Assembly: GCA_027596075.1 (NCBI GenBank)
Contig: JADGJC010000061.1
Span: 1-64,000 of the forward strand
Source of the DNA: Rhizophlyctis rosea
Taxonomy: Eukaryota > Chytridiomycota > Chytridiomycetes > Rhizophlyctidales > Rhizophlyctidaceae
DNA: 64,000 nt
Direction: 5' to 3'
The notes under the pieces were generated by a model, which was not told where the DNA came from, made no database searches, and saw only the letters and a program-made list of their open reading frames with translations. The translations under genes and the position numbers were made by a program. Positions 43,513 to 63,661 of this stretch are shown piece after piece (the first letter of the stretch is position 1; each line of letters begins with the position of its first letter).

Positions 43513-43627
43513 GGGGGGGGGGGGGGGGGGGGGGGGTGGGATGGGACAACATCCCAAAAAAATTTGCCGTTGACCTTATAAAAAAATGAAGAAATATTAA
43601 NNNNNNNNNNCCCCCCCCCCCCCCCCC
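43513..43627. other. Assembly gap between poly-G and poly-C runs
   Basis: G24 at 43513-43536, then about 64 nt of ordinary sequence, ten Ns at 43601-43610, then C17 at 43611-43627. The two homopolymers are complementary and could fold back on each other. The gap size is a placeholder. Confidence 0.9.
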
Positions 43628-56910: not shown

Positions 56911-59900
56911 CTACGATATTGATCCAGACGCCGTCCTCCGCCCACTATCTCTCTCCCTATCCTTCTCCCCCTCCTCACCCCCCAAACTATCCCCATCCCT
57001 CCCCACGCCACTCGCCTCATCCTCCCACCACCAACTCTTCAACGTTCTATCATCCGAACAGCTCACAAACAAGCTCCTCCTCGCATTCCACGCTCCGCTA
57101 TACACTATCCCGCCATGTCCCGGAAGAGTTTGCAGGATGTCGGCTTTATCTACGTCCCAAATATATAGCAAGCCGTCCTGCAAATAATATGAAGTAAGGA
57201 CGGAGAAGTTTCTCAACATAATGGTCGGATGGAAAGTATTGACATACCTCCGACCCTCCAACCACCAACGAATCCCCAGCAAAGTTGGTCCTGATAAAGT
57301 TCTTGCTCGTGTTCTGATGTCCTCGGAATTTCCGGACGGGTCGCGTCTGGTGGGATTCAGTTTTGTGAGCAGGCTCGAATAATGGTCAGCGCATTTACTA
57401 ACATATCAACGAATCACTCACCATCCGGATATCCCACAATCGATTCGAATTATCCTTACTACTAGATAATAGTAGAGTCCCATTCGAACTCATATCCACG
57501 CACGTTACTTCTCCAAGATGCAGTGACAGCGTCTTTATACATAGCCCTGGGACGCACACACCACGTCAATTACCATCATCAGTGTTATATAGCATGGAAG
57601 ATACCCACCACTCAAAATATCCCAAAACTTGATTGTACTATCTTTACTTCCCGTCACGACCAAATTCCCCAGCGGGCTAAAAATAGCTTTCGTAACGCTC
57701 AAAGTATGTCCGACGAGCGTTTGCACGGTTTTGCCCCGCTCAATGTCATATAAGCGGACAGTTTTATCGTAGCCGCCGGTCACAATGTGGCGCTGGAGAC
57801 ATGTTGAGAAACGATGTCTCGTTAAAGTGAAGACTGTCGAAAACTTACCTCAGCGGGATGGAATTTTACACTATATACATCTCCAACTGCATCATCAAAT
57901 GTTTGGACGCATTGCATTTTACCATGTTTCATATCCCACAGCTGGTGGTAAATGAAATCAGATGTGGTTTCGTCGAACGACTGCAGATGGGTTACAGCGC
58001 ACCAACCTTGACACCTCCATCTCCCGAAGCACTGGCAACAGTTGACCCGGCTTTATTACTCGCAACATCCCAGATGCGAGAAGTATGTCCCTCCAGCACC
58101 GCTAAACACTCCGCCGATTCCGTATCCCACACGCGCACCGTGTTGTCACTGCCCATCAATGCATCCGATCAGTTCAAAGTTCCAAATTTCCCATCACATG
58201 GAACAAACCTTGAGCCCGATACCACCCACTTGCCGTCCTCCCCCACAAACTCGACACATTTCACATTGCCCTTGTGGCCCACAAACGTATGCCGAATGGC
58301 GTTGGGAATGATAACGGAGCTATAATCTTGCAGTAAACTGTGGGAAACCGAGTTGTCATTTACGGCCCTACGGATGCATTATTCGCTTTGTTCCTACCTA
58401 GTGACTTTTGGGGCTATTCGTGGATGATATCGGGAAAACTCAATTTGGTACGCAACGGCTTGTCTTAGAAGGGTCAGTAGCCTTTGGGGTGGGACGTAGG
58501 CGGACCCTGACCATATTAGGCTGTTATTAGCAGAGCGTCCACAGAGCGCTCGCAACATATGGGTGATCCTACCTTCTCGATCTGCTATTTCTACATTGAC
58601 CATGCTCTGGAATTGCTGAACCAGCTTCTCTCTGTATGCAAACTGTTAGCCACGTGCAGGGCAGATTTAAGTGATTTGAGTCACTACCTTGACCGCTCCA
58701 CTCCTTCCCACTCTTTGAATGAGGGAACATCATGTACCGACTTTGCTGTTAGGAGATAGCATAAGTCACGGAATTCGCCAGGCGTTGTGGCATGATGTTC
58801 CAAAGGTTTTAGGCGCTTGTTAAGATGGGTAAAAGCCTGTAAAGACGATTTGTCGGTCACGTGTGGGAACACCAAGTATGGACAATTAGTACACACCTTT
58901 TGCAACTCGTGATGCTCTATGTACTCCAAGTATTGTTGCTTGTACACCGCATACAAAAATGATTTGTAATTTCGTATTAGTGGCTTGGCGCACAACTTAT
59001 CCACCTCCGCCCAGTCGCCATCTACAAATTGAGTGAACACCACCAGTATGTTGCGACGCATTGGACGGCAAAACGAATCTTACCTAGGACGGCTTTTCGC
59101 ATCCGCTTAATATCCATATGTCGCTCCTCCCGCTCATGCGACTTCACATTGGCCTCATCTAAAACCGTAAGCTTTGACGCATTGTAACCTTCGTCGCTCA
59201 AATATTGTATTATAATACGGATGATGTCCTGTGAAAAGAAAGACCAAAAGGAAACGGTCAACATTGGCCCCTGCCGAACCTCATCTGGCCCACTAGCTGG
59301 TGAGGCCCACCTTCCCCCATTTCATCGATGACGGCATGCCCTTGCAATTGCGTGCACGTTCTTCTTAAAATGGCACTCCCTCCCGCCATAAGTGACCCCC
59401 CATACCCTCCGAGCCATTTTCAGTCATGTCACAAGGGCGCAAAGCTGCCCACCTCTTTGATTCTCTCCTCATTTGAATTGAATATATCGTCAGTGGGTCG
59501 TATGCATTTTTCGTGCCGTCCCACGTGTGTCTGGTTCGCAGCAATGGTCAATAAGCTGAAAGACAATCTCGCGTCAGAAACAAATCGTTGAAGCTTCTGA
59601 GCCCTTTTGGCTGGCGCTCCAGTTGCGTACCTTTCTTGATCCAGCACATTGGCCATAGCGCCCGAAAATCCGTTTGCTTCTGGTAGTGAGGTCTCCGACG
59701 ACGATGAATAACCGGAAAAGGCATGATGTAGTCGATGGGGTTCACCCAGTCGTCGTGACGAATCTGCTTCTGACCCACGCCCTAGACGCTCTACGATAGA
59801 GCCCATAAACGAAGAAGATGTCGAGTCGGGAGAGCCTACCGATCTGCTGAACTCGGAGGCGTTTGAAGCGAGGCTCTGCCAAGGTGGACGTGCGGTAGAT

Positions 59901-60130
59901 ATGTGCAGGGTGGAGGGAGCATTGGAGTTTGAGGAAATGGAGCCGGAGTCTGAAGTGGATATGCCGAGGTGGTCTTGGTTGCTGGAGTCTGGTAATGAGC
60001 CTATGGAGCGCGCCACAGAGTCTCGGTGCATGATGTCCGCAGGAGTTGCTGGGGTCATAGAACGCGCTTCAGAGGTCCGCCGAGATGTGGATAAATTGTT
60101 GGAGGATGAGTCAAGTTGTGAGTCCTCCAT
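56911..60130 (-). CDS. LisH-CTLH-WD40 protein, WDR26/GID7-like N-terminal module
   Basis: The ATG at 60130 starts MEDSQLDSSSNNLSTSRRT; the first 160 residues are Ser-rich and disordered. A LisH helix pair follows (DIIRIIIQYLSDEGYNASKL, nt about 59245-59180), then a CTLH/CRA region: KRMRKAVLEGDWAEVDKL, SFLYAVYKQQYLEYIEHHEL, LTAKSVHDVPSFKEWEGVER and VPPQRLLTLLRQAVAYQIEF. This order and spacing match WDR26/GID7, including the VPP-RLL-LLRQAV signature. Seven WD40 repeats come next (VWDTESAECLAVLEGHTSRI, VTGGYDKTVRLYDIERGK, VTGSKDSTIKFWDILSG, LYIWDVDKADILQTLPGH), ending with an acidic-basic tail and TAG at 56911-56913. The WD40 part looks more generic than WDR26's. It could be the scaffold that multimerises the GID/CTLH ligase, or a different LisH-CTLH-WD40 protein. 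More than ten exons. Confidence 0.78.
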
Positions 60131-60442: not shown

Positions 60443-63400
60443 ATGGCCGATGAGGGAAAGGCGGGTGGGGTTAGCGCTGAGTCTTCAGCTGGAGCAGGAC
60501 GTTCTGGTCCAGAATGGTAAGTCACAAGCACCCGAGGGAAACTTGGCCCATGAACTAATGACTTTGGAGCAGGCAGCAATACCGTGACACCGTAGAGATT
60601 CCTGACGAAGAGGAAGCTCCAGTGTCCACGAAACCTCCACAGAAGCCGGCCGAGCCTCCCATCACTCCTTCGCGGCCCGCAGCCGCCTCCAGCAGGTCGT
60701 CCCCGCGTTCCGCCAAGAAATTGACTCCCACAGAACAAAAAGAAGCAGACCCTTCCCTAAACATCATTCCCGACAACACAATGGAATCGATCGTGCATTA
60801 CATCGAAACCATGGGAGTCAAGAACATCATCGTCATGACTGGGGCAGGTATCTCGACTAGTGCTGGCATACCAGATTTTCGTTCGCCGGGGACCGGTTTG
60901 TATGTTGACCAACTCTGTTTGAAGAATCCAAGCTTTGAAAGATGTTGATGAAATGTTTCTTTGGTAGATATGATAACTTGGCGAAATACAATTTACCATA
61001 TCCGCAAGCTATCTTCGACATCAACTATTTCCGACGAAAGCCCGAACCGTTCTTCACGCTGGCAAGCGAGTTATACCCGGGGAACTTCCAACCCACACCC
61101 TCCCACTGTGAGTGCTGAAACACGTCGCGCACGCAGTTGCTGTTCAGTGGTGTAAACACATACACATAAATCATTAGACTTCATTCGCTTACTTGCCGAG
61201 AAGGGCATTTTGCTCCGAAATTACACGCAAAACATCGATACGCTGGAACGTGTCGCTGGCATGCCTGCGGATCTGCTCGTAGAAGCACACGGAAGCTTCT
61301 CCGACGCGCATTGTGTTGGGGCAGCTGCACCTGGAGATGACGCATCCGACAGCGAGGACGAGATGGCTGGCACCCTCAATGCGATACGGGGTTGCGGAAA
61401 GGAGTACTCTCAGAAATGGGTAAAGGACGAAATCTTTGCGGGCCGCATTCCACGATGCGAGCAATGCAACGGGCTTGTCAAACCAGATATTGTTTTCTTC
61501 GGCGAATCCCTACCCGAACGCTTCCATACCCTACTCCGCAATGATTTCCGAGTTTGTGATTTACTTATCGTTATCGGCACCAGTTTGCAAGTGATGCCAT
61601 TTGCCGCTTTGATCAATCATGTTCAAGAGCATGTTCCACGGCTGCTCATCAATCGTGAACTCGCTGGTGTGACGGAGTCAGCACATTCCGGTTTCGATTT
61701 TGACGGTAGCTTGCAGAAGTATCGGAGGGACGCGGTATTTTTAGGGGGTTGTGATGAAGGCTGTGAACGGTTAGCAGATTTGCTGGGTTGGAAGGAGGAA
61801 CTCACGGACTTGATACGGCGCGAGAAAATCAGACTAAAAACCTCGGAAGAATCTCCAGCTCCACTCAGTACGGAGGCCGCCACCACAACTCCTGCAGCAA
61901 CTTCGGCTCCCGCTCGCTCCCCGACTCCCGCCCCCGAAACGCCCGCCCCCAGCATATCCGCCACTTCACCGCCAACTGTCGCACCTGTAGAATCAGTCAG
62001 CCCACCACCTGACACTAGGAAGCGCGTTCGCGCTGACTTCGAGTTTGGTCGCACATTGGGCGAAGGATCGTACTCCACCGTCCTATTTGCTAGGGAAAAG
62101 GGGACGGACCGCGAGTTTGCTGTAAAGATGTTGGACAAACGTCACATCATCAAAGAGAAGAAGGTTAAATACGTCAATGTGGAGAAGGATGTTTTGAATG
62201 CACTATCACATCCCGGCATCATTAAGCTCTATTACACCTTTCAAGACCAACATTCGCTTTACTTCGTGCTGGAGCTGGCGAAGGATGGGGATCTATTAGG
62301 GGTGATTAGGAAGCTGGGGTGTTTTGATGCGGAGGGAGCACGATGGTATATAGCCGAGATCATTGACGCCGTTGCATATTTGCACTCGCAAGGGGTTATT
62401 CATCGGGATTTGAAACCTGAGGTATGATCGTCGCCGTTGATGCGGCATCTCATGGAATCCAAATCGAGTACTGATTTGTTTTCGTTATGAGAATTTGCTA
62501 TTGGATTCCAACATGCATATAAAGGTGAGTGTGCTCGGACTGGGTCCAGTCACACGAAATGCTGAACATCCTTCAGATTGCAGACTTCGGTACAGCGAAG
62601 CAAAAGAAGAAGAATGATGAGCCTTCAGACGATGACGCCGACACCCAACGCAACTCATTTGTGGGAACAGCTGAATACTGCTCACCGGAGCTGCTGAATG
62701 ATCGTGCAGCAACTGAAGGTTCCGACGTTTGGGCTATCGGGTGCATCCTTTTCCAACTCTTGGCCGGTAAACCGCCCTTCCGCGGCAGCAACGACTACCA
62801 AACTTTCCAGAAAATCATCAAGTTGGAATACGCATTCCCAGAAGGCTTCAACGAAACGGCAGCAGATCTCATCCGGCAGATATTAGTCCTGGAACCTTCC
62901 CAACGCCTAACTTTGGACCAAATCAAGAAGCATGCGTTTTTTGACGGATTCGATTGGAAGGATCTTCAATCCCGACCTCCTCCCGACCTGCGCCCGTTCC
63001 TACCCGCTACATCCGATCATAACATCGAAGATCTTCGAAGCGAATTGGAGGTGTTGAATTTGCCGTACGCTGATGGCGCTGGTCTTTACGCGATCGGTGA
63101 TACGGAATTGCCGGCACGGGATCCGTTTGAGACGGATGAACCCAGCCTGGGCACCGGTGATCGTGCGCAAGCGGCCATTGACCCCAAACGGGCGGAGCAG
63201 TTGCAGCGGCAGGCAGCGTCGTGGTTTGCGTCTTTCCTCAAGCATAATGAGCTCATCCTGATGGATGGACCTGTCAACAAGGTTTGACATTTTTCGCTGG
63301 TATTACCAGCTCTCAACGTTGGCTGATGAAGGTTCACAGAGGAAAGGCTTGTTTTCAACCAAACGAGGTCTCCTACTGACCGATCTTCCGCGGTTGGTCT

Positions 63401-63661
63401 TTTATGATGAGGGCAAGCAGACTTTGAAGACGGAAATTCCGTGGTCGGAGGATTTGAAGGTGGAGCTCAAGGGGCGCAAGCACTTTTTCATTCATACTTC
63501 GAAACGAACTTGGTATTTGGAGGTAAGGGTGCTTCTGGAGGGTCTTTCGTGGGACAAGTTTTGTGTACTCACTCTTCGATGCTTGCTAGGATTTGGAAGG
63601 AAACGCCGCGCGTTGGGTTGATAAGATTTCCGAGCTGATCTATAAGGTTGGAAGCTCTTGA
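60443..63661 (+). CDS. Sirtuin (SIRT2/Hst2-type) fused to PDK1 kinase with PH domain
   Basis: Eight exons (60443-60516, 60573-60899, 60968-61107, 61178-62421, 62492-62524, 62577-63281, 63340-63522, 63590-63661) give 925 residues; all joins are phase-consistent. Residues about 100-380 are a class I sirtuin: [16 protein letters not shown] (from Gly115), [13 protein letters not shown], catalytic His218 in LVEAHGSF, four zinc cysteines (HC, GCG, RCEQC) and [12 protein letters not shown]. An acidic insert ([10 protein letters not shown]) splits the zinc module. A Pro/Ala/Ser/Thr linker (about 385-468) leads to PDK1: [14 protein letters not shown] (Gly475 on), [26 protein letters not shown] (589 on), DFG at 609-611, activation loop [15 protein letters not shown] with the PDK1 autophosphorylation serine, and [20 protein letters not shown]. 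The PH domain (about 825-922) has [16 protein letters not shown] and [15 protein letters not shown]. Exon 4 contains both the sirtuin's end and the kinase's start with no stop between them. Predicted: NAD-dependent deacylase joined to a phosphoinositide-recruited AGC-kinase kinase. Confidence 0.93.
61855..62040 (+). other. Linker-coding segment of the fusion
   Basis: Codes for a Pro/Ala/Thr/Ser-rich, disordered stretch ([19 protein letters not shown] type) between the sirtuin C-terminus and the PDK1 N-lobe. It is wholly inside exon 4, in frame, without GT-AG borders that would remove it. This is the direct evidence that the two halves are one polypeptide. Confidence 0.85.

Follow-up and report, generated by a model that had tools for sequence, protein, structure and literature searches.

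A gene predicted to encode a SIRT2-type sirtuin joined to the protein kinase PDK1 resides at 60443–63661, on the + strand, of a 64,000-nucleotide stretch (the window) from contig JADGJC010000061.1 of the chytrid Rhizophlyctis rosea. The gene is made by 8 exons and encodes a protein of 925 amino acids (aa; 102.7 kDa), with a single terminal stop. All 7 introns are GT-AG introns, and measure 52–70 nucleotides (nt). Six splice variants (924–929 aa) pass as gene models, with differences confined to introns 5 and 7. The 925-aa model chosen is identical, in every letter, to the NCBI protein P0001. The latter has been deposited as '3-phosphoinositide dependent protein kinase-1 [Rhizophlyctis rosea]', a name from which the sirtuin is absent; the precomputed Pfam domains give both.

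The SIR2 domain (PF02146, 2.6e-58) spans residues 115–321 (60841–61599), the PDK1 kinase domain (Pkinase, 7.7e-71) residues 468–728 (62038–62942), and the PH_3 domain (PF14593, 8e-30) residues 823–919 (63225–63640). Each is interrupted by two introns, and all features of the gene lie on the + strand. Exon 1 (60443–60516) contains the start codon and part of the sirtuin N-terminal tail; the GPEW|QQYRD junction at its end agrees with the SIRT2 proteins P0240 and P0241, described below. Exon 2 (60573–60899) carries the N tail and, from residue 115, the NAD-binding GAGIST motif, and sirtuin sequences fill exon 3 (60968–61107). Exon 4 (61178–62421; 1,244 nt) is the junction exon, and encodes the sirtuin catalytic core, the zinc module, a linker of 59 residues (402–460; 61840–62016) and the PDK1 N-lobe through HRDLKPE, with no stop. 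The gene model includes a short exon 5 of 33 nt (62492–62524). Exon 6 (62577–63281) carries the DFG motif, the activation-loop residue S633, the C-lobe and the start of the PH domain, which proceeds through exon 7 (63340–63522) and ends in exon 8 (63590–63661), where the stop codon is found. A preliminary description of the locus had proposed a fusion of this type, with an open junction exon running from the sirtuin to the PDK1 N-lobe, intact catalytic signatures in both halves, and later exons completing kinase and PH domain. Exon 4 is as it described, and so are the signatures (sirtuin H218 and zinc cysteines, kinase HRD, DFG and S633) and the gene model through exon 8. At the DNA level the fusion is supported by the shared frame, the single exon, the sole copies found and the chytrid ancestry of both halves. 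It is thus confirmed that a SIRT2-type sirtuin domain and a PDK1 with kinase and PH domain, both complete, are joined in one reading frame, and a single protein is predicted.

The junction has been analyzed in detail. Neither a stop after the sirtuin nor a start before the kinase flanks the linker, which measures about 180 nt. The 192-nt stretch 61825–62016 is open in 23% of the shuffles of its own letters, so openness alone is not rare; none of the 241 overlapping 192-nt segments taken from two flanking intergenic stretches is open. The join is more than chance, because the two flanks are unrelated conserved domains set in one frame. The DNA across the junction (61600–62250) occurs once in the genome, and the sole run of N of the window (43601–43610) is 17 kb away.

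The linker is composed for 80% of Pro, Ser, Thr and Ala (P/S/T/A), for 12% of charged residues, and features seven [S/T]P sites. In the N-terminal tails of PDK1s from chytrids, other fungi and Capsaspora (14 of 14 proteins) P/S/T/A residues account for 47–76%, charged residues for 6–29%. The C-terminal tails of SIRT2s were compared in 20 chytrid-lineage sequences, two of which had no anchor. In 17 of the 18 anchored sequences P/S/T/A residues make up 19–47%, charged residues 24–45%; the eighteenth tail is a 9-residue stub (0.56 and 0.11, respectively). The composition of the linker is nearest to PDK1 N-terminal tails, and far from SIRT2 C-tails. In two AlphaFold2 models, one for each half, the per-residue confidence (pLDDT) of the linker is mostly <50.

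One frame may correspond to two products, if a protease cleaves the linker, or if alternative transcripts are made, by use of a distinct PDK1 first exon or by early polyadenylation after the sirtuin. Acceptor-like AG sites do occur in the linker; one of them, CACTAG|G at 62018, shortly precedes the kinase and could receive such a first exon. Disorder is predicted for most of the linker, and a free PDK1 could be useful, PDK1 being essential in yeasts. The site at 62018 is, however, a bare consensus match, and from the SIR2 domain up to the kinase catalytic lysine the reading frame of the gene model contains no ATG. The first in-frame ATG past the SIR2 domain end (61599) is at 62128, and is the codon immediately following that of the catalytic lysine K497, which leaves the kinase without a usable start of its own. 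Two products from this gene are regarded as improbable.

Copies of either half were searched, exon by exon, in the 44.1-Mb R. rosea assembly. PF14593, which identifies PDK1-type PH domains, matches the genome once, at the SIRT2-PDK1 gene. The PDK1 half matches four pieces of its own gene and 98 other places, the latter over partial stretches at 24–56% identity. The best of these other matches reaches at most 104 bits, vs 534 bits for the SIRT2-PDK1 gene, in line with what other kinases should give (scores cover 91 of 180 candidates). The sirtuin half has 3 strong matches, all corresponding to exons of the same gene. PF02146 marks 6 loci. Of the five loci found elsewhere, the C67 locus is SIRT1-type (SIRT1 4.3e-86 vs 2.4e-54 for the best SIRT2 chain), the C420 locus SIRT5-type (6.8e-48). 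The C112 locus is far from all solved types (best match 6.3e-16, SIRT2 7e-14). The deacylase closest to the C145 locus is structure 5oj7 (3.3e-25; SIRT2 1e-05), which we take to be SIRT4, and the C370 locus does not match the SIRT2 half and looks SIRT6-like by eye. The check for separate SIRT2 and PDK1 genes, suggested in the preliminary description, thus returned no separate copy of either in the assembly. In the assembly, these searches found no PDK1-type PH domain and no SIRT2-type sirtuin besides those of the SIRT2-PDK1 gene. Since the sole PDK1 found resides here, and PDK1 is essential in yeasts, this gene must supply the PDK1 function, if the assembly is complete.

Among solved structures, the sirtuin half is closest to SIRT2 (4y6l, 1.3e-106), followed by SIRT3 (2.9e-86), yeast Hst2 (1.6e-65) and SIRT1 (8.3e-59); SIRT5, SIRT6 and SIRT7 are not named among its 59 structure matches at 1e-20. 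The motifs GAGIST (at 115) and QNID (at 198) and the catalytic HG (H218) are all present. N199, D201 and H218 are invariant in an alignment of SIRT2 relatives (A4), as are the zinc cysteines C226, C274 and C277; C253 is nearly invariant. The sirtuin half is, by its sequence, a SIRT2-type class I sirtuin, and NAD+-dependent deacylase activity is predicted. The charged C-terminal tail and the stop usual in chytrid SIRT2s are absent, and linker and PDK1 are found instead, which is a trait of the lineage and does not define the family. Residues 227–252 (61315–61392), many of which are acidic, form a stretch of 26 residues between the first two zinc cysteines, where the solved SIRT2 chain has 4. 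Other aligned chytrid SIRT2s have inserts of variable length at the same site.

The kinase domain best matches the solved structure 4c0t ('likely protein kinase', 5.6e-102), then PDK1 chains from 6.8e-99 (3nax); the match to the next family after PDK1 is about 1.6e-55. The PH domain matches the PDK1 PH domain 1w1d (6.3e-26). K497, E516, D609 and S633, the last located in the activation loop (NSFVGTAEY), are invariant in an alignment of PDK1 relatives (A3), and D591 is nearly invariant. The residues equivalent to the human PIF pocket, which presumably is formed by K115, R131, T148 and Q150, are by alignment to PDK1 chains K501, K517 (Arg replaced by Lys), T534 and Q536. Human K465, R472, R474 and K495 are assumed here to bind phosphoinositides; the equivalents of K465, R474 and K495 are kept in the R. 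rosea PH domain as K841, R850 and K871, and that of R472 is replaced by Thr. Kinase and PH domain together are assigned to PDK1, and phosphorylation of the T-loops of AGC kinases is predicted.

The two alignments, made by 29 relatives each and hand-picked from 352 proteins, were used for the structure models. A joint alignment (A2) of P0001, 24 SIRT2s and 22 PDK1s was rejected, as MAFFT laid the PDK1 kinase domains over the sirtuin. With the PDK1 alignment kinase and PH domain have pLDDT values mostly above 90; with the SIRT2 alignment the sirtuin has values mostly of 70–98. In each model the half lacking its own alignment has low confidence, and the pTM scores of the two are 0.45 and 0.49. 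The models inform on each half alone, rather than on the relative placement of the domains.

A second fusion was searched among the best 120 of 2,895 matches to the sirtuin region and the best 120 of 5,024 matches to the PDK1 region (candidates of ~509–1,619 aa in both), and among the best 120 of 7,840 sirtuin-only matches. No second SIRT2-PDK1 protein was found among the 351 other proteins listed. PF02146 is listed for P0001 alone among the best 120 PDK1-region matches. When each half was compared by blastp to the 352 proteins, P0001 included, both halves matched only P0001 and P0108, and the latter is not a PDK1. It had been suggested to look in chytrid proteomes for proteins featuring SIR2 together with kinase and PH domains; among the matches listed, SIR2 accompanies a PDK1 kinase and PH domain in P0001 only. 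PDK1 models shorter than ~509 aa, such as fragments from Borealophlyctis or from the other R. rosea assembly, fall outside the search, and no PDK1 from either source is among the matches listed.

The five nearest PDK1s listed, from Spizellomyces, two Geranomyces, Powellomyces and Thoreauomyces, are separate proteins of 512–553 aa, and 4 of them have N-tails rich in Ser, Thr and Pro; the nine free chytrid PDK1s among the matches listed measure 512–637 aa. The R. rosea kinase and PH domain are 64% identical to Spizellomyces punctatus PDK1 (P0121; PDPK1, fungal Pkh1/Ksg1), and share with it the activation loop and the PIF-pocket threonine and glutamine. Unlike P0121, the R. rosea PDK1 lacks a start codon of its own, and is preceded by a sirtuin. 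The nearest SIRT2 listed that is not marked as partial is P0241 (SIRT2/Hst2) from Borealophlyctis nickersoniae, a member of the same order. The two sirtuins are 74% identical and have in common the N-terminal GPEW motif, the catalytic residues and the acidic insert between zinc cysteines. P0241 is unfused (460 aa) and ends with a charged C-tail, whereas the R. rosea protein has PDK1 in its place. A second R. rosea SIRT2, P0240, comes from another assembly and is 80% identical. It is not present in the 44.1-Mb assembly, as judged by the search with the sirtuin half. P0240 is marked as partial, resides on a 4,203-base contig and ends immediately ahead of the linker, which precludes scoring the sister strain for the join.

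Trees were built with hand-picked rows (20 SIRT2s and 18 PDK1s besides P0001), and several deep forks are open. The sirtuin half groups with R. rosea P0240 (95/92), and the PDK1 half falls in a split of ten chytrid rows (97/95). Both positions argue against the join of DNA from different organisms. Linkage of SIRT2 and PDK1 in relatives was judged from gene numbers and contig sizes, a measure by which fragmented assemblies (as in Thoreauomyces, with an 8-kb contig) still allow neighborhood. In Powellomyces hirtus the gene numbers differ (g00870 and g02669), and in Geranomyces michiganensis, Thoreauomyces humboldtii, Cladochytrium replicatum and Siphonaria sp. JEL0065 the two genes are on contigs of differing size. 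Contigs differ also in Geranomyces variabilis and Synchytrium endobioticum, but clusters mix strains in these species. Since gene numbers or contigs differ in five chytrids, there is no sign of an ancestral neighborhood of SIRT2 and PDK1. The preliminary description had regarded unlinked genes in all close relatives as a sign against the fusion. The genes are largely unlinked in the relatives checked, but the fusion is not refuted by this; the pattern rather suggests a derived, lineage-specific event.

The differing contigs are also what one would see if a mis-join in the assembly, or a missed stop, made two separate genes appear as one. According to an excerpt of a study on sirtuin evolution (PMC9486876), sirtuin fusions predicted from public genomes may stem from faulty annotation. 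There are also chytrid models in which SIRT2 is merged with a peroxiredoxin or with ZPR1. The join of R. rosea is, however, in the DNA itself, in one exon and in frame, with no N nearby, and both halves are of chytrid lineage. A linker of ~180 nt leaves little room for a terminator and a promoter. Furthermore, a mis-join should leave second copies or lost ends; no second copy was found, and lost ends were not searched for. An artefact is considered very improbable.

Sirtuins joined to domains of other families have been described. The SIR8 sirtuin carries, in the same excerpt (PMC9486876), a CAP-C domain; this partner binds actin, and is not a kinase. The few other putative sirtuin fusions mentioned there are represented by one sequence each, and are possibly annotation errors (PMC9486876). 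P0108, from Blastocladiella emersonii, is similar to the R. rosea protein in that a single predicted protein matches both Pkinase and SIR2. It differs in the order of the domains, which is reversed, and in the kinase, which matches Pkinase from profile position 78 (the N-lobe is absent) and is not a PDK1 (28% identity over 96 residues). The P0108 sirtuin is SIRT2-like, being 48% identical to the R. rosea sirtuin half, and B. emersonii has a separate PDK1, P0130. A sirtuin-PDK1 fusion was not found in the open-access literature, among the matches listed, nor was SIRT2 found there together with 'acetylation of PDK1'. Both enzyme families are known; their combination in a SIRT2-PDK1 protein appears to be new, as far as the open-access literature shows.

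Other domains precede SIRT2 in some chytrid models. In P0004 (Blyttiomyces sp. JEL0837) and P0007 (Chytriomyces hyalinus) a peroxiredoxin (AhpC-TSA and 1-Cys Prx C) is found ahead of the predicted SIRT2. Seen in two genera, this arrangement is either a further SIRT2 fusion or a conserved neighbor that gene models have merged with SIRT2. Domains of ZPR1, namely one zinc finger and one jelly-roll, are found ahead of SIRT2 in P0016 and P0023 (Chytriomyces hyalinus) and P0042 (Podochytrium sp. JEL0797), again in two genera. Taking the peroxiredoxin, ZPR1 and PDK1 cases together, chytrid SIRT2 looks fusion-prone. In P0002 (Phlyctochytrium planicorne) a complete sirtuin follows the C-terminal half of another, as from a tandem duplication, by eye.

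Two genes border the SIRT2-PDK1 gene. Upstream, a divergent gene (59022–60130, − strand) is LisH/CTLH-like and by eye resembles WDR26/Gid7; about 310 bp separate the candidate start codons. Downstream, a gene of the same strand, at about 64016–65253 of the contig (L022 517–1754, C542), resembles by eye the ciliary protein PACRG.

The origin of the gene may be explained most simply by a rearrangement which placed PDK1 downstream of SIRT2. The SIRT2 tail and stop would have been lost, as would the PDK1 start codon, and the former N-terminal tail of PDK1 would have turned into the linker. Data on mammals suggest how the two halves may cooperate. As reported in portions of two reviews (PMC6005846, PMC8365027), the PH domains of Akt and PDK1 fail to bind phosphatidylinositol trisphosphate (PIP3) when acetylated, SIRT1 reverses this effect, and SIRT2 binds the Akt PH domain. 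The work on SIRT1 and PDK1 is that of Sundaresan 2011, as cited in both. Since deacetylation of the PDK1 PH domain by mammalian SIRT1 has been reported, a coupling of NAD+ to AGC signaling by deacylation in cis is plausible by analogy. We slightly lean to the view that the gene encodes a membrane-recruited, NAD+-dependent deacylase-kinase, in which the sirtuin deacylates PDK1 or its AGC clients and the old PDK1 N-tail serves as linker. The PH domain would bring the polypeptide to membrane phosphoinositides, and the flexible linker would keep the sirtuin at high local concentration near PDK1 and AGC clients. The tethered sirtuin may deacylate, in cis, lysines of the PH or kinase domain of PDK1, or else those of AGC kinases docked to it. 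PDK1 signaling would be favored when NAD+ is high and damped when it is low, and NAD+ would in this way gate growth signaling.

The fusion may be real and the sirtuin mainly a passenger, the two enzymes working independently on one chain, with fixed stoichiometry and shared localization, and no deacylation in cis. The low predicted order of most of the linker is in line with this, as are the retention of catalytic residues in both halves, their resemblance to free relatives, and the separate location of the genes in relatives. The reported action of mammalian sirtuins on the PDK1/Akt pathway speaks for a functional link instead; otherwise the sequence does not separate the two possibilities. 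Independent enzymes on one chain are held to be rather unlikely.

Some findings weigh against a single deacylase-kinase acting in cis at the membrane, and have to be set against the evidence above. Two independent enzymes would give the same sequence picture as regulation in cis. The equivalent of human R472, a residue which we assume to coordinate phosphoinositides, is T848, and that of K534 is Arg. A genome search for the PI3K marker PF00794 had a control without match anywhere, and so has no bearing on the presence of PIP3. The join has been seen in one strain, and the partial P0240 neither confirms nor denies it. Searches made exon by exon could miss another PDK1 or SIRT2, if introns divide it or if it lies outside the assembly. 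As for the linker, among the three forward frames the sense frame has the best codon usage score (−0.025), yet a reverse frame, which is open too, scores higher (0.228), and the P/S/T/A share of the linker (0.80) slightly exceeds the range of PDK1 N-tails.

A broader view, in which the whole AGC-kinase network of R. rosea is under a built-in NAD+ sensor, the SIRT2 in cis erasing inhibitory acyl marks so that growth signaling occurs only at high NAD+, is speculative and doubtful. Sirtuins and PDK1 are central to the control of metabolism and growth, and regulation of PDK1 by sirtuins is evidenced in mammals, in trans. Reported sirtuin chimeras are rare and often doubted; this one would be a fusion of sirtuin and kinase that can be read directly from the DNA. 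It would be a tractable protein, in which one point mutation, at H218, tests whether the deacylase sets PDK1 output. As no other source of either enzyme was found in R. rosea, the fusion would argue, by 'Rosetta stone' logic, that the two activities belong together.

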